A DNA stretch of 64,000 nucleotides from Bradyrhizobium sp. CB2312 (GTDB taxonomy: Bacteria; Pseudomonadota; Alphaproteobacteria; Rhizobiales; Xanthobacteraceae), in assembly GCF_029714425.1 (NCBI RefSeq), contig NZ_CP121668.1, forward strand, positions 2,191,501 through 2,255,500. Reading direction: 5' to 3'. The notes below the pieces were generated by a model. The model had not been told where the DNA came from and did not search any database. It saw nothing but the letters and a program-made list of their open reading frames with translations. A program made the translations under genes and the position numbers. Shown piece after piece: positions 25,077-30,723 of this stretch; within the stretch, counting starts at the first letter, position 1, and each line of letters starts with the position of its first letter.

Positions 25077-26252
25077 TTAGGGCTCCGCGGTGCGAATGCC
25101 CGCGGGGCTCACCTGCAGCTTGAGCGTCGACGTCTTGGTCAGCGCCTTGCCGTCGAACGAGAAGGCGATCAGCTCGTTCTCCACCATGCACTGCGCCACG
25201 ACATGTTTGGAGTCCTTGGACCACACCATGCCCTGGCACCAATGGCCGATCTTGGCTTCCGCAACCGGTGTGAGGTCGGTGCCCGAGATCCGGTAGACCT
25301 TGAGCAGGCCGAAATCGTTGAAGAAGGGCGAGGCGGACGGCTTGTTCGAGCCGTTCATGACGGTGACGGCGACATGGTTGCCGTCCGGCGACATCTTTAC
25401 CGCCTCTGGCGTCTGCCCGACCGTGACCGTCGTGACGACCCGGATTGGCTTGGCCGTCATGTCGATCAGGCTGATCGTGTCGTTGTCGCCGCTGCCGGCG
25501 CCGACATTGCCGACGACGGCCGCGGCGCCGCCGGTGAGGTCGATATCGTAGGGACGCACGCCCGCGGAGAGATCGCGCTTGGCGTACTCGACCTTGCTGC
25601 CGTCCACGGTGAGAAGCGAGACCTTGCTGTCGCCGTCGCGGGTGACCAGGGCGGTCGCGCCATCACGCGAGAACACGGCGTGGCTCGGGCCCGACTTGGC
25701 GTCGCCGAGCTGGATCTTGCCGGCCGGCGTCAGCGCGTTGCCGCTGATGGTGAAGACCGAGACCGTGCCTTCGCTGCGGTTCGCAACCAGCGCCAGGGTG
25801 CCTGCGCGGTTGATCGAGACGCCGGCCGCACCGGCGCCGGCCTGAAGCGTCGCGAGCACTTTTGGCGGTGAGGATTTCAGGTCGATGACGGAGAGCTTGT
25901 CGTCGGGCACCGTCTTGGTCGCGTCCGCCGGATCGAGCTTCATCGCGCCTGTCACCAGCGCAAACGAACCATCCGGCGCGATCGCGACGCTTGGCGGCGG
26001 GCCGACCACGCTGGCGGGTGCGGGTACCTCGCCGAGAAGCTTCAGCGCGCCGTCGGTAAGGTCGATCACGCTGACCGTATCGGGCAGCGGCTGCTTGCGC
26101 ACCACGGCATTGCCGTTCTCCAGCACCATCTTGCCGTCATTGGCGGTGACGACGATCTCGGCATGAGCCGCGAAACTGGCGAGGCCAGCCAGCGACGTCG
26201 CGACCAGGGCTGACGCGGCATGGCGCGTGCGCCTGCGAAGAGCGGCTTTCAT
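25077..26252 (-). CDS. YncE-like periplasmic beta-propeller protein
   Basis: 391 aa with a signal peptide (AALRRRTRHAASALVATSLA, ending AHA). The rest is a series of 40-50 residue blades of the YVTN/YncE type (VSVIDLTDGALKLLGEVPAP, LSVIDLKSSPPKVLATLQAG, ISLIDMTAKPIRVVTTVTVG, QTPEAVKMSPDGNHVAVTVM). It is predicted to be a soluble periplasmic binding scaffold. It is divergent from the phosphoesterase gene with 263 bases between starts. In other bacteria YncE and alkaline phosphatase-family domains occur fused in one protein, which supports a shared role here. Confidence 0.85.
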   Translation of the reverse strand: MKAALRRRTRHAASALVATSLAGLASFAAHAEIVVTANDGKMVLENGNAVVRKQPLPDTVSVIDLTDGALKLLGEVPAPASVVGPPPSVAIAPDGSFALVTGAMKLDPADATKTVPDDKLSVIDLKSSPPKVLATLQAGAGAAGVSINRAGTLALVANRSEGTVSVFTISGNALTPAGKIQLGDAKSGPSHAVFSRDGATALVTRDGDSKVSLLTVDGSKVEYAKRDLSAGVRPYDIDLTGGAAAVVGNVGAGSGDNDTISLIDMTAKPIRVVTTVTVGQTPEAVKMSPDGNHVAVTVMNGSNKPSASPFFNDFGLLKVYRISGTDLTPVAEAKIGHWCQGMVWSKDSKHVVAQCMVENELIAFSFDGKALTKTSTLKLQVSPAGIRTAEP

Positions 26253-26439
26253 GTTTCCCCCTGAGAGCTTGTTCTTGTCCGGCTAAGCTAAAGGCAACCG
26301 GGCGCGTCGCGCAACGATCTGGACGCGATCATTTTTGCCGTGGTGCGGGGAATAAAGCGCCATGACGTGGCCCGGCGGAGCCGGCGCCTGCCTAAAAAAT
26401 CTTCGCTGCGCCACTGCGCAAAGTGTCTCGTGCGTCAAA

Positions 26440-26469
26440 CTGACACAGCGCTGTCACCGGCGCTGTCTA
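26440..26469 (+). promoter_or_regulatory. Pho-box-like site (PhoB) upstream of phosphoesterase
   Basis: CTGACAC-AGCG-CTGTCAC (26440-26457) matches the Pho box layout of two CTGTCAT-type heptamers with 11-base period. A weaker third heptamer CTGTCTA follows at 26463. It is 58 bases upstream of the phosphoesterase ATG, the right place for a PhoB-activated promoter whose -35 is replaced by the box. Confidence 0.6.
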
Positions 26470-26515
26470 GAAGGCTTCTGATCGTAAACATCCTCATTTC
26501 CGGGGCGTCAAAAAA

Positions 26516-28231
26516 ATGAAATCGAAACTTCTGACGACGGCTGCGATTTTCGCGGCCGCGAGCGCGCTCGCGTGCACTCTTCCCGTCCTTGCCGACGATT
26601 TCGGTCGCGATCGCGATCACGGACATGACGATCATCACCGTCATCCGCACGACATCCACACCGAGACGCCGATCAAGCATCTCGTGGTGATCTTCAACGA
26701 GAACCGCTCGTTCGATCATTACTTTGCGACCTATCCGAACGCGACCAATCCGTCCGGCTCGATCCCCTTCGTGCCGAAGCCGCATACGCCGAAGGTCAAC
26801 AACCTCGCCAACGCCAATCTGCTGGTGCACAATCCCAACAACAATCCGACCAACGGCACCGGCGCGACCGATCCGTTCCGCCTCGACCGCACCCAGGCCA
26901 ACACGAGGTCGCAGAACCACTCCTACACGCCCGAGCAGCAGGCCGTGGACAACGGCAAGGAAGACCTGTTCCCGAAGTTCACCGGCCGCGGCACTGCCGG
27001 CGGCGCCGGCGCCTTCGGCACCAACGGTCAGGTCATGGGTTATTTCGACGGCAACACCGTCACTGCGCTCTGGAACTACGCCCAGCACTTCGCCATGAGC
27101 GACAACAACTGGACCGACACCTTTGGCCCGTCGACGCCCGGCATGCTCGAAGTGGTTGCCGGCCAGACCAACGGCGTGCAGCCGGTCGTCGGCACCACGT
27201 CGTCGGTCGCCGATGGTCAAGGCGGCCTGACGCTGACCGGCGACACCGATCCCGGCAATGATGTCTGCTCGAGCAAGACCAGCACGATGCTGATGGGCGG
27301 CAAGAATATCGGCGACCTGCTCACCGCCGAGCACATCAGCTGGGGGAGCTTCATGGGCGGCTTCGACCTGACGCTCAAGAACGCCAATGGCACCACCGGT
27401 TGTGCGCGCAGCACGTTCTCGAGCAACGTCAACGGCACCATCGTCGACTACATCCCCCACCACGCCTTCTTCCAGTATCACGCGTCCACGGCCAACCCGA
27501 CCCATGCGCGGCCGAGCTCGGTCCATGCAATTGGTCATACCCATGACTTCAATGGCAAGGTCGATCCCGCCAACCACAATTACGATCTCGAAGACCTCTA
27601 TGCCGCGATCAAGGCCGGCAACTTCCCGGCCGTCTCCTACGTCAAGATGCCGGCCTACCAGGACGGTCATGCCGGCAACTCCGATCCGCTCGACGAGCAG
27701 GCCGGCAATGTCGAGCTGATCAACTTCCTGCAGAGGCAGCCGGAGTGGCGCGAGACCGCCGTCATCATCACCTATGACGACTCCGACGGCTGGTACGATC
27801 ACCAATATGTCGCGCCGAGGAACGCCTCGTATGATGCGACCGCCGATCAGGTCAACGGCCCCGGTCTGTGCGGCCTCGGTCCGAACAAGCAGCCGGCGCC
27901 GAACGGTCTCGGTGGCAAGCCGGTGAACGGCCGCTGCGGTCCGGGCACCCGCGTTCCCTTGATCGTGGTGTCGCCCTACGCCAGGACGAACTACGTCAGC
28001 CACAACTACACCACTCAGGCTTCGGTGGTCCGCTTCATCGAGGACAACTGGCTGCATGGCAAGCGCCTCGGCGGCGGCTCGTTCGATGCTAACTCCGGCT
28101 CGATCATGGACCTGTTCGACTTCGACCATGACCACAGCCACGACTTGCGGGCTGACGCGCTGTTCCTCGACCCGACCTCGGGCACGGTGATCACCAGCCC
28201 GCCGGACGAGCATCATCATCACCATCACTAG
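26516..28231 (+). CDS. Secreted phosphoesterase (phospholipase C/acid phosphatase AcpA family) with His-rich ends
   Basis: 571 aa. Signal peptide residues 1-26. A His/Asp-rich stretch (31-48, DRDHGHDDHHRHPHDIH) precedes the family motif HLVVIFNENRSFDHYFATYP; further blocks are NNWTDTFGPSTPGMLEVVAG and ITYDDSDGWYDHQY, which supply metal and active-site residues. It should cleave phosphate esters outside the cytoplasm. A second His/Asp run (FDFDHDHSHDL) and a natural C-terminal hexahistidine after PPDE end the protein. A Pho-box-like site lies upstream, and a di-heme peroxidase gene follows 18 bases after the stop. Whether the substrate is a phospholipid or a phosphomonoester is open. Confidence 0.9.
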   Translation: MKSKLLTTAAIFAAASALACTLPVLADDFGRDRDHGHDDHHRHPHDIHTETPIKHLVVIFNENRSFDHYFATYPNATNPSGSIPFVPKPHTPKVNNLANANLLVHNPNNNPTNGTGATDPFRLDRTQANTRSQNHSYTPEQQAVDNGKEDLFPKFTGRGTAGGAGAFGTNGQVMGYFDGNTVTALWNYAQHFAMSDNNWTDTFGPSTPGMLEVVAGQTNGVQPVVGTTSSVADGQGGLTLTGDTDPGNDVCSSKTSTMLMGGKNIGDLLTAEHISWGSFMGGFDLTLKNANGTTGCARSTFSSNVNGTIVDYIPHHAFFQYHASTANPTHARPSSVHAIGHTHDFNGKVDPANHNYDLEDLYAAIKAGNFPAVSYVKMPAYQDGHAGNSDPLDEQAGNVELINFLQRQPEWRETAVIITYDDSDGWYDHQYVAPRNASYDATADQVNGPGLCGLGPNKQPAPNGLGGKPVNGRCGPGTRVPLIVVSPYARTNYVSHNYTTQASVVRFIEDNWLHGKRLGGGSFDANSGSIMDLFDFDHDHSHDLRADALFLDPTSGTVITSPPDEHHHHHH

Positions 28232-28249
28232 TCCAACGGGACGCTACGA

Positions 28250-29593
28250 ATGAACAGCCGCACTCTGTGGCTCCTCGGCGCCGGCCTGCTTTGCCTGGCC
28301 GGCGCCGTCTTTGCTGCCGGGACGCAAGGATTTGCAGAGACGAACCAGGTCGGTGTGAACCCGAACCCGGTCCGTCTCATGCGTCCACCCGTCGCGCCGT
28401 TGTCCGCAATGGCGCTGCTCGGCAAGGAGATCTTCTACGACGCCTCGCTCTCGTCCTCCGGCACGCTCTCCTGCGCATCCTGCCATAGCCCCGATCACGC
28501 CTACGGCCCGCCGAACGACGGGCCGGTCATGCTCGGCGGCGCGACGCTGTCGCGCCAAGGTGCCCGCGCGGTGCCGTCGCTGACCTATCTCGATCGCCAT
28601 CCGAACTTCAGCATCGGCCCGGACAAGGGCGACGACGACAACATCATCGACCTCGCGCAGATGGCGGCCATCGGCCAGCAGGCGGCGCGCACGACCAAGA
28701 CCGCGGGCGGCACCGGCGCGTCGGCGAACATCGTGCCGCAGGGCGGCCTGTTCTGGGATGGCCGCGCCGACACGTTGCAGGATCAGGCGCTGTTTCCGCT
28801 GCTCGATCCCAACGAGATGGACGGCGGCAGCGCCGAGATCGTCGCGGACAAGCTGCGTGGCGCGCCTTACGCTGGCCGCTTCGTCGAGCTGTTCGGCGCC
28901 GGTGTGCTGAGGAATCAGCGGCTGCTGATTGCCGAAGCGATGTTTGCGGTCGCGCGCTACCAGGTGGAGGAGCCGAGCTTCCATCCCTACAACAGCAAGT
29001 ACGATTACTGGCTCGAAGGCAAGGCGCGGCTCTCCGAGAGCGAGCTGCGCGGCCTGCAACTGTTCAACGATCCCGATAAGGCCAACTGCGCGGGATGCCA
29101 CACCTCGGCGCCGACCCGCGACGGCTTGCCGCCGTTGTTCACGGATCATCAATACGAAGCGCTCGGCGCACCGCGCAATGCCGCGCTCGTCAATAATCGC
29201 GACCCCAATTATTTCGACCTCGGCGTCTGCGGCCCGCACCGCACCGACATTCCCGAGCAGACGCAATATTGCGGCATGTTCCTGACACCGACGCTGCGCA
29301 ACAGTGCCACGCGGCACGCCTTCTTCCACAACGGCGTGTTCAGCACCCTTCAGCAGGTGATGGATTTCTACAATTTCCGCGACACCAATCCGGAGAAAGT
29401 GTTTCCGCGCTCAGCTGACGGCACGGTGCTGAAATACGACGACCTACCGCAGAAATATCACGCCAATGTCGACGTCACCGATCCACCGCTCGACCGTCAC
29501 CCCGGCGACAAGCCGGCGATGACGGAGCAGGACGAAGCCGACATCATCGCGTTCCTGAAGGCGCTGACGGACGGCTACAAGGTGGAGAACTAG
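28250..29593 (+). CDS. Di-heme cytochrome c peroxidase / MauG-like protein
   Basis: 447 aa. Signal peptide (LWLLGAGLLCLAGAVFA), then two c-type heme sites, CASCH (75-79) and CAGCH (280-284), in the usual family order with LGKEIFYDASLSSSGTLSC before the first and LRGLQLFNDPDKANC before the second. FWDGRADTLQDQALFPLLDP and TPTLRNSATRHAFFHNGVF are family blocks. It should reduce peroxide or oxidise a partner protein in the periplasm. It is 18 bases after the phosphoesterase and probably cotranscribed, which is an unusual partnership. Confidence 0.92.
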   Translation: MNSRTLWLLGAGLLCLAGAVFAAGTQGFAETNQVGVNPNPVRLMRPPVAPLSAMALLGKEIFYDASLSSSGTLSCASCHSPDHAYGPPNDGPVMLGGATLSRQGARAVPSLTYLDRHPNFSIGPDKGDDDNIIDLAQMAAIGQQAARTTKTAGGTGASANIVPQGGLFWDGRADTLQDQALFPLLDPNEMDGGSAEIVADKLRGAPYAGRFVELFGAGVLRNQRLLIAEAMFAVARYQVEEPSFHPYNSKYDYWLEGKARLSESELRGLQLFNDPDKANCAGCHTSAPTRDGLPPLFTDHQYEALGAPRNAALVNNRDPNYFDLGVCGPHRTDIPEQTQYCGMFLTPTLRNSATRHAFFHNGVFSTLQQVMDFYNFRDTNPEKVFPRSADGTVLKYDDLPQKYHANVDVTDPPLDRHPGDKPAMTEQDEADIIAFLKALTDGYKVEN

Positions 29594-29649
29594 CTCGCCT
29601 TGTCGGCGTTGGCTTGGGTCATCGGACGAGAGGGGCTGTGGCTGTTCCT

Positions 29650-30723
29650 TCAGCGCCCCTTGATCTCCGCATACTTCGCCATGGCGCGCTCGAACTTCCG
29701 GTTGAACAGCCACATCGCGGCGAGGATCTCGCGGAAGCTGGCCGAGGTGCGCGCCCGGTCGGCCTGCCCGAACGCGAAGATGCTGTTGTTGCGCAGGTGC
29801 TTCATGACCGTGGGGCTGGACACCCGGTAGTTCAGGAGATCGCCGGATTTGAGCGCGGACCGCGTCGGGGTCGGGACAATCTGGATCAGCTCGAACAGCT
29901 TCATTTGGTCGATCGGGTCGGGCAGCGTCTTCACGATTGCGGGGATCTCCCGGAACAGATCCGCATGCGCGTTCATCAGGCCGTCGCGGACATTGGTCCA
30001 GTGATTGAAGCGGTGGTCGGTGCCGCGGGCGCGCGCCTCTTCCTTGTCGTCGCGCGTGCTCAGCTCGGGATCGAGGCCTGCGATCTCGCCCTTGATCGCT
30101 TCCCATTTCCTGTGGCCGTTGCGGTCTTCGGACGGGCCGGTCTGGAAGCTGCCCATATAGGTGTTGGAGCGTCCGTTGCGGACATTCTGCTTGCCGTTGG
30201 TCTCCGCAAAGAACAGCCCCAGGCTGATGCGGCCCGCAGCTTCCGCGTGAACAGGTGCCAGCCCCTTGGCGCGCGCAATCGCGACCGCGAGATCGACGAC
30301 GTCCTTGAACGGCGTCGGCGAATTCTGAGCACCGGCCGGCGGCGCCTCCATGATGTCGAACAGCTTTCCGTATTCGTCGATCAGCGGCTCGATGTCGGCA
30401 TCGAAATAGGCCGGCGGGATCTCGAACTTGTTGGGCCGTCCGATCCGCGACGGCATGGCGTCGGTGAGATCCTTGTAGCTGCTGATGACGGCGACGCGCG
30501 CGAGATAAAGCGCCTGGCCCGGCAGGTTCGGCAGCGGCTGCTTCGCGTCGATCTGCTTGCGCCGCTCGGCGAGAACAGCCTTGAACTCGCCGAGCGCGCG
30601 CTCATAGGTCGCGAGCGCCTCGGATTGCCGCGTCGTCGGCGCGCCCGTCTGTGCAACGGCGGGCGCCGTCATGAAGAAGGCAACAGCCGCAAGGGCTATG
30701 GCGGCAAGTCGTCTCGATCCCAT
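29650..30723 (-). CDS. Exported protein of unknown function
   Basis: 357 aa with a signal peptide (AAIALAAVAFFMTAPAVAQ). The mature part is mostly helical. A central stretch, GRISLGLFFAETNGKQNVRN then SNTYMGSFQTG, has an acidic residue followed by a GxxQ-like element, faintly like lysozyme-type lytic transglycosylases, but I would not assign that. It ends with helical LNYRVSSPTVMKHLRNNSIF and AMWLFNRKFERAMAKYAEIK. It converges on the di-heme peroxidase with 56 bases between stops. Family not recognised. Confidence 0.75.
   Translation of the reverse strand: MGSRRLAAIALAAVAFFMTAPAVAQTGAPTTRQSEALATYERALGEFKAVLAERRKQIDAKQPLPNLPGQALYLARVAVISSYKDLTDAMPSRIGRPNKFEIPPAYFDADIEPLIDEYGKLFDIMEAPPAGAQNSPTPFKDVVDLAVAIARAKGLAPVHAEAAGRISLGLFFAETNGKQNVRNGRSNTYMGSFQTGPSEDRNGHRKWEAIKGEIAGLDPELSTRDDKEEARARGTDHRFNHWTNVRDGLMNAHADLFREIPAIVKTLPDPIDQMKLFELIQIVPTPTRSALKSGDLLNYRVSSPTVMKHLRNNSIFAFGQADRARTSASFREILAAMWLFNRKFERAMAKYAEIKGR

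Follow-up and report, generated by a model that had tools for sequence, protein, structure and literature searches.

What does a di-heme redox enzyme do beside a secreted phosphatase, and does the third gene next to them share in the work? The question is raised by a locus in Bradyrhizobium sp. CB2312 – in the window, that is, the whole 64,000-nucleotide stretch of contig NZ_CP121668.1 analysed here – at which genes for a propeller protein, a phosphoesterase and a di-heme protein lie side by side. A sequence-only reading of this DNA had proposed a periplasmic module of all three, and the part that stands is the phosphoesterase and the di-heme protein: that these two adjoin one another as a rule and behave as a unit is, to our minds, nearly certain, whereas the propeller falls away. 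The physical arrangement is confirmed by open reading frame (ORF) calls and by the sequence itself – a propeller gene divergent from the phosphoesterase gene and 263 bp away from it, 18 bases between the phosphoesterase stop and the di-heme start on the same strand, and signal-peptide-like N-termini, read by eye, on all three proteins:

25077..26252, reverse strand: propeller (391 amino acids, PF10282), which we regard as a bystander to the unit
26516..28231, forward strand: secreted AcpA-like phosphoesterase (571 amino acids, PF04185), catalytic residues intact
28250..29593, forward strand: secreted di-heme protein of the BthA-like clade (447 amino acids, PF03150)

The phosphoesterase matches PF04185 at 214.9 bits (cut-off 23) and has AcpA (PDB 2d1g) as its nearest solved structure (E = 4e-103); against TIGR03397, the Burkholderia-type acid phosphatase model, it scores 124, below the cut-off of 362.75. 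The di-heme protein, with two CxxCH motifs, matches PF03150 (CCP_MauG) at 116 bits (cut-off 25.6), and its nearest solved structure is 6nx0 (E = 4.3e-72), which we take to be BthA. The 9.78-Mb single-contig genome holds one PF04185 gene and four PF03150 matches, and among named proteins the closest matches come from Bradyrhizobium.

That the pair is a unit follows first from the genus. Among 146 same-genus genomes, the di-heme protein (threshold E<=1e-60) occurs in 50, at 54 places, and at 51 of these a PF04185 gene lies directly beside it, 47 times in tandem and four times divergently. At the remaining three, the phosphatase is cut by a contig end (L223; L and G numbers are our own handles), split into two ORFs (L224) or found at a contig start (L225, an exception probably explained by the contig break). 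The split phosphoesterase occupies L224:3107-4863, and the di-heme gene adjoining it is intact. Four further loci (L226-L229) carry the propeller and the far flanking gene at the same site, with the pair missing. The DNA of L226 and L227 matches the window at 26253-26378 and then at 29562-29602, the last bases of the di-heme gene included, and lacks the 3.2 kb between, so that the phosphatase, the di-heme gene and the box upstream of them appear to have been lost together and the propeller kept; in L228 only the first match was seen, in L229 neither.

Beyond the genus, four kinds of partner can be told apart: t (AcpA-like, as in the window), d (divergent acid phosphatase), lipoprotein-like (assigned by hand) and metallophosphoesterase (the partner of the BthA orthologue). 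A phylum-wide sample of 398 genomes gave 24 di-heme places above 200 bits and 14 below. Eighteen of the 24 have a phosphoesterase – a count that takes in L057, where it lies 2.4 kb off with a transposase between, and L058, whose diverged partner has no Pfam match and a BLAST match to the partner in L053 at 3e-14 – and at one there is a metallophosphoesterase. Neither kind of gene is present at three (G540, G455 and G579, the first with a d-type phosphoesterase elsewhere in the genome), and two are cut by a contig end: in G330 the phosphoesterase is also near a contig end, and in G291, where the di-heme gene is broken in two, it lies 2.9 kb from the gene's other half. No phosphoesterase was found within about 9 kb at any of the 13 places fetched from below 200 bits, the fourteenth being the other G291 half. 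The intervening gene in L057 (7088-8374, reverse strand) is transposase-like, with rve and IS481 leucine-zipper domains, and separates a d-type phosphoesterase from the di-heme gene.

Named records tell the same story, with the proviso that they are the best 80 of at least 517 confirmed matches and, being ranked by similarity to a linked protein, are biased towards its clade: a phosphoesterase-family gene adjoins the di-heme gene in 74 of these 80 and is missing from five, and in the last a contig start cuts the locus off. They span Rhizobium, Agrobacterium, Thioclava, Burkholderia, Paraburkholderia, Thiomonas, Collimonas, Dyella, Novosphingobium, Acetobacter and a metagenome-assembled genome labelled Eremiobacterota. 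Annotated plasmids carry the pair too, divergently in Rhizobium johnstonii 3841 pRL11 and in tandem in Kozakia baliensis and Caballeronia sp. M1242; a fourth plasmid record, from Cupriavidus metallidurans, is without annotation. The neighbourhood check that the sequence-only reading had suggested thus returns a di-heme gene beside the phosphoesterase far outside the genus, and no such recurrence of a YncE-type propeller; the adjacency of the pair is beyond chance. No third neighbour recurs: among 135 genes flanking a thinned set of pair loci, called by codon composition, no Pfam family appears more than four times.

Two observations from these surveys stand on their own. In L041, a PhoX-type gene (PF05787; 9901-11853, reverse strand) lies directly after the pair and convergent with it, and a Pho-box-like CTGTCATATAGCTTTCAT is found between the PhoX-type gene and a helicase gene. 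In L216 (4207-5577, reverse strand) and L220 (11-1387, forward strand), a different CCP_MauG protein of 457-459 amino acids adjoins an AcpA-like phosphoesterase that has no BthA-like partner, possibly a second, independent pairing; kin of this protein occur in two of the 398 phylum genomes, neither with a PF04185 match.

A partnership of this general kind is already described in Burkholderia. According to Rizzolo et al. 2019 (PMC6405878), bthA is 'always' downstream of a putative phosphatase gene in this genus; the phosphatase, phosA, is called a putative purple acid phosphatase, and its oxidation by BthA conceivable; both genes are induced in anaerobic growth; and cluster IIIb is obligate in Burkholderia, in classes A and B. 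BthA itself turns over H2O2 with an external donor and forms a bis-Fe(IV) state, its K444R variant is reported to behave like wild type, and its function was called undiscovered in 2019. The suggestion that the window holds an undescribed system must therefore be given up, both the partnership and the idea of an oxidised phosphatase being in that paper – the only one in which we met the partnership in the literature searched, most subscription papers being outside that search. What is new is that a wide clade of such di-heme proteins pairs with AcpA-type phosphoesterases, the partner of BthA being of the unrelated metallophosphoesterase fold, and that a Pho-box-like site precedes the window pair.

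Reading 6nx0 as BthA agrees with the Ser, Lys and Cys marks that PMC6405878 describes; the BthA orthologue of L059 matches the structure at 774 bits. Upstream of bthA orthologues lies a metallophosphoesterase gene (PF00149), in L059 and, by coordinates, in seven of seven plasmid-collection records; an eighth, from Novosphingobium, has a metallophosphoesterase and no BthA orthologue at that threshold. An apparent di-heme/phosphatase fusion in L059 was considered and rejected: the 976-amino-acid ORF is an out-of-frame upstream extension, and the real upstream gene encodes the metallophosphoesterase. One genome, G586, carries three members – a BthA type (94% identical to a Burkholderia cenocepacia match), a d-linked one and a t-linked one like that of the window; the d-linked member, on the largest contig, would be class B, and the window type a further class.

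How close the window protein stands to BthA can be judged from the following positions:

28472..28486, forward strand: first heme motif CASCH (C75-H79), from sequence and alignment
28754..28756, forward strand: inter-heme Trp169, at the position of MauG Trp93 and of Ser257 in BthA (PMC6405878)
29087..29101, forward strand: second heme motif CAGCH (C280-H284), from sequence and alignment
29228..29272, forward strand: Cys327 and Cys341, counterparts of the Cys415-Cys430 disulfide in BthA (PMC6405878)
29312..29314, forward strand: Arg355 at the Ca2+-site position, Lys444 in BthA and Thr in the MauG-like outgroup (PMC6405878)
29369..29371, forward strand: Tyr374, equivalent to Tyr463, ligand of the six-coordinate heme of BthA

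In a tree of 74 rows, built by a quick method with 31 t-linked rows sampled and all other types kept, the phosphatase-linked di-heme proteins form a single supported clade, to which none of the 13 MauG-like outgroup rows belongs. On this tree the type of partner changes three times, a count that omits four rows of type 'x', one of which (L191, with a phospholipase-C-like partner) would add a change; the exact place of the BthA row is unsure because its branch is long. All 97 linked proteins, the BthA orthologue included, have the Cys pair, against none of the 13 in the outgroup, and all 97 have Arg or Lys at the Ca2+ site, where the outgroup has Thr (13/13). The Tyr ligand does not discriminate, being present in 12 of the 13 outgroup proteins. 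The inter-heme Trp occurs in 94 of the 96 phosphoesterase-linked proteins and is Ser in the BthA orthologue, so the window protein, with Trp169, is a member of the clade and not an orthologue of BthA. With BthA it shares the clade, the Tyr ligand, the Cys pair, a basic residue at the Ca2+ site and a secreted phosphatase encoded directly upstream; it differs in having Trp169 and Arg355 for Ser and Lys444, and an AcpA-like PF04185 partner in place of a metallophosphoesterase. Distances among paired phosphatases and among paired di-heme proteins correlate (r = 0.78, 90 pairs), a figure uncorrected for kinship and not used here as evidence.

Neither of the better-known relatives comes nearer. MauG shares the PF03150 family, the Tyr ligand and the inter-heme Trp, but on its model, TIGR03791, the window protein scores 87.7 against a cut-off of 443.85; the window protein also has the Cys pair, Arg for Thr at the Ca2+ site and Ala at what we take to be the Trp199 position of MauG (an assignment that rests in part on aligned residue-199 variant chains), and no methylamine dehydrogenase gene was seen among the annotated neighbours of the pair. 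MbnH, whose gene is paired with that of MbnP, is likewise a PF03150 di-heme protein encoded beside a candidate partner; here that partner is a phosphatase, and on TIGR04039 the window protein reaches 100.2 against a cut-off of 362.85.

The phosphoesterase, for its part, has an intact active site. The nine catalytic and metal positions listed for AcpA in PMC6635428 are all present in the window protein (E62, N63, H135, S206, H315, H316, H385, D421 and D422). Among linked sequences, each is conserved in 77-80 of 80 of the t-type and in all 11 of the d-type, in which Glu stands for D422. Beyond these shared positions, the window enzyme differs from AcpA in its His-rich tails, and it is encoded with a di-heme enzyme. 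The tails, which gave the sequence-only reading its 'His-rich' phosphoesterase, are real and lineage-specific: the window protein ends in HHHHHH (28211-28228), and 37 of 120 homologues have at least four His in a row at the C-terminus, a feature that none of the 17 other linked phosphoesterases compared shares.

Is the pair tied to phosphate? One further feature bears on this:

26440..26457, forward strand: Pho-box-like CTGACAC-N4-CTGTCAC, 13 of 14 positions, with C or T allowed at the last base of each half

The site ends 58 nt before the phosphoesterase start and can equally be read as an inverted repeat, TGACA-N6-TGTCA. The pattern CTGWCAYNNNNCTGTCAY has four matches in the genome, one of them this site, and its reversed control none; of the two pstS genes, one has a 13/14 site upstream and the other reaches 10 at most. 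Most aligned relatives in the genus keep the site, L193 lacking it and L157 having a weaker form. Of the regions upstream of in-genus phosphoesterases, 12 of 14 reach a best-site score of at least 12/14, compared with 7 of 59 that precede neighbouring genes (in-genus rows are related, not independent, and the 59 include three divergent propellers that share the box); outside the genus the figures are 7 of 71 against 7 of 304 (p = 0.007). The other three CTGWCAYNNNNCTGTCAY matches lie at or near the starts of CYTH-CHAD, DUF4337 and decarboxylase-like (named by eye) genes, for which reason the case for PhoB is moderate; on these sequence patterns, phosphate control of the pair seems somewhat the better bet.

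The explanation that we prefer is a two-gene secreted cassette for phosphate scavenging, in which an AcpA-type phosphoesterase is joined by a member of the BthA-like di-heme clade and the two genes would be transcribed jointly, to judge from the 18-base gap, and controlled by PhoB, to judge from the Pho-box-like site. Least certain of all is the chemistry: peroxide would raise the di-heme enzyme to a high-valent state, as it does BthA, and the enzyme would then service the phosphatase oxidatively, most likely by putting or keeping the phosphatase's active-site metal in a working, oxidised state, and not, as with MauG, by introducing a modified residue. Members of one di-heme clade stand beside phosphatases of two unrelated folds, PF00149 and PF04185; this, together with the lack of an oxidisable residue that tracks pairing in both phosphoesterase subfamilies and of the MauG exit Trp, weakens residue-specific modification and leaves the servicing of a metal site, protection from peroxide or oxidation of a released product. 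Metallophosphoesterases are metal phosphatases; we favour metal servicing since both kinds of partner hold a catalytic metal and AcpA-type enzymes are sensitive to reductants. Ascorbate inhibits AcpA and dithiothreitol inhibits SapM, a distant relative, effects that the authors relate to metal chelation or oxidation state (PMC6635428). We put the explanation as a whole at a little under an even chance, and hold the servicing of the metal, taken by itself, more tentatively.

Several observations weigh against this explanation. Clade members without an adjoining phosphatase exist (L136, L139, L142, L159, L195, L077, L052 and L060), as does a t-type phosphatase with no di-heme gene in the 9 kb around it (L211). 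Eleven close relatives without a counted phosphatase – a group that takes in L058 – have the Cys pair (11/11) and the Arg (10/11, the exception being L060, with Thr and Pro at that site), so the Cys pair and the basic residue mark the clade and not the pairing. In the lipoprotein-like partners of L053, L058 and L181, several catalytic positions are not kept in the alignment. As to the metal of AcpA-type enzymes, inductively coupled plasma mass spectrometry found none in SapM, and the plant relative NPC4 is insensitive to ethylenediaminetetraacetic acid (PMC6635428 and PMC9837106). The anaerobic induction of bthA and phosA tells against any simple peroxide-driven role, since peroxide should then be scarce. 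On the side of regulation, two of the other three exact CTGWCAYNNNNCTGTCAY matches lie at genes with no obvious tie to phosphate, and outside the genus most pairs have no Pho-box-like site. In place of the T of the Pho consensus, in-genus sites carry A (nine listed) or TA, which would allow for another regulator.

Of the competing explanations, the one that survives best gives the di-heme protein the role of a peroxidase: it would remove H2O2 around the phosphatase and shield the metal site of that enzyme, without acting on the phosphatase itself. This would suit phosphatases of any fold, agrees with the turnover of H2O2 by BthA with an external donor, and is compatible with a conserved distal pocket (Gln in 96/96, Glu in 96/96 and Pro in 95/96 phosphoesterase-linked proteins); it leaves the strict retention of the di-heme gene beside a phosphatase gene unexplained and sits badly with the anaerobic induction reported in PMC6405878, and we consider it unlikely. 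Slightly less probable again is a sequential pathway, in which the phosphatase would first free phosphate from an organic phosphoester, leaving a product for the di-heme enzyme to oxidise: partners of different folds and subtypes would be accounted for, but the 135 flanking genes hold no recurring transporter or catabolic gene, and no substrate suggests itself.

That the di-heme protein installs a modified amino acid in its phosphatase, in the manner of MauG or MbnH, is a further rival, though a rather improbable one; the sequence-only reading had thought that the protein might modify or activate the phosphoesterase as MauG does its substrate. The chemistry is at hand, given the bis-Fe(IV) state of BthA and the inter-heme Trp of nearly all linked proteins, and Rizzolo et al. 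(PMC6405878) called oxidation of the partner conceivable, but the partner of BthA is of an unrelated fold. On the di-heme side, no clade-specific Trp or Tyr that might serve as an 'exit' was found among the clade-specific positions, and all 96 phosphoesterase-linked proteins have Ala or Gly at the Trp199 position. In MauG, Trp199 is the surface residue for electron transfer from the substrate. On the phosphatase side, we compared 78 tandem, 13 divergent and 23 unlinked phosphoesterases, omitting the contig-end L215 and L225 and weak or odd-length sequences and keeping the diverged partner of L053 among the 78. Two subfamilies emerge, and no Trp, Tyr, Cys or Met tracks pairing in both, in what is a weak test with only six unlinked t-type sequences. 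Tyr137, two residues from the substrate His, does so in the t-type only, being present in 99% of linked t-type and two of six unlinked t-type sequences; of the 13 divergently linked phosphoesterases, 11, those of the d-type, have Phe there. Asp124 tracks pairing weakly in both subfamilies, being found in 1/6 and 4/17 unlinked sequences.

A three-part module with the propeller is very nearly discounted: the propeller does adjoin the pair in five of the 15 genus genomes that bear it and at two of the best 80 named loci, and a different, YNCE propeller comes next after the pair at one distant locus (L062), but the two show no association across the 146 genomes and are found without each other at the same site. 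In numbers, a propeller orthologue (at least 50% identity) occurs in 15 of the 146 genomes; the di-heme gene is present in five of these against 45 of the 131 others (Fisher p = 1.0), or, put the other way, the propeller is present in five of the 50 genomes with the di-heme gene against ten of the 96 without. The pair stands without the propeller in L040, the reverse of L226-L229, and Lactonase propellers make up three of the 135 flanking genes; on co-occurrence, one-sided loci and flanking families together, the propeller is rejected as a member. Even its label was loose: it matches PF10282 (Lactonase) at 33.2 bits (cut-off 21.7), the only model above cut-off, and the YNCE model PF21783 gave no match at E<=0.001. 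Two other neighbours may be recorded. An SBP_bac_3 binding-protein gene (PF00497; 24252-25040, forward strand) accompanies the propeller in L226-L228 and not in L229, both being absent from L040; and a 357-amino-acid protein (29650-30723, reverse strand), without a match in Pfam and NCBIfam scans, has relatives at this place in genus loci, whether or not these carry the pair.

The pairing is thus far wider than the Burkholderia case of PMC6405878, and one example is found in Bradyrhizobium, which lends itself to genetics. It occurs widely across the Proteobacteria, perhaps in answer to a shortage of phosphate, and its occurrence with phosphatases of two folds narrows the jobs that the di-heme protein could do. 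In a more speculative vein – and we think it unlikely as a general rule – BthA-like di-heme proteins might be dedicated redox partners of phosphate-starvation phosphatases of at least two unrelated folds, maintaining or activating their metal oxidatively, such that the scavenging of organic phosphate in soil Proteobacteria would be gated by periplasmic redox state. If the phosphatase does need its di-heme partner, this would add a new layer of control over the use of organic phosphate in soils and in legume symbionts.

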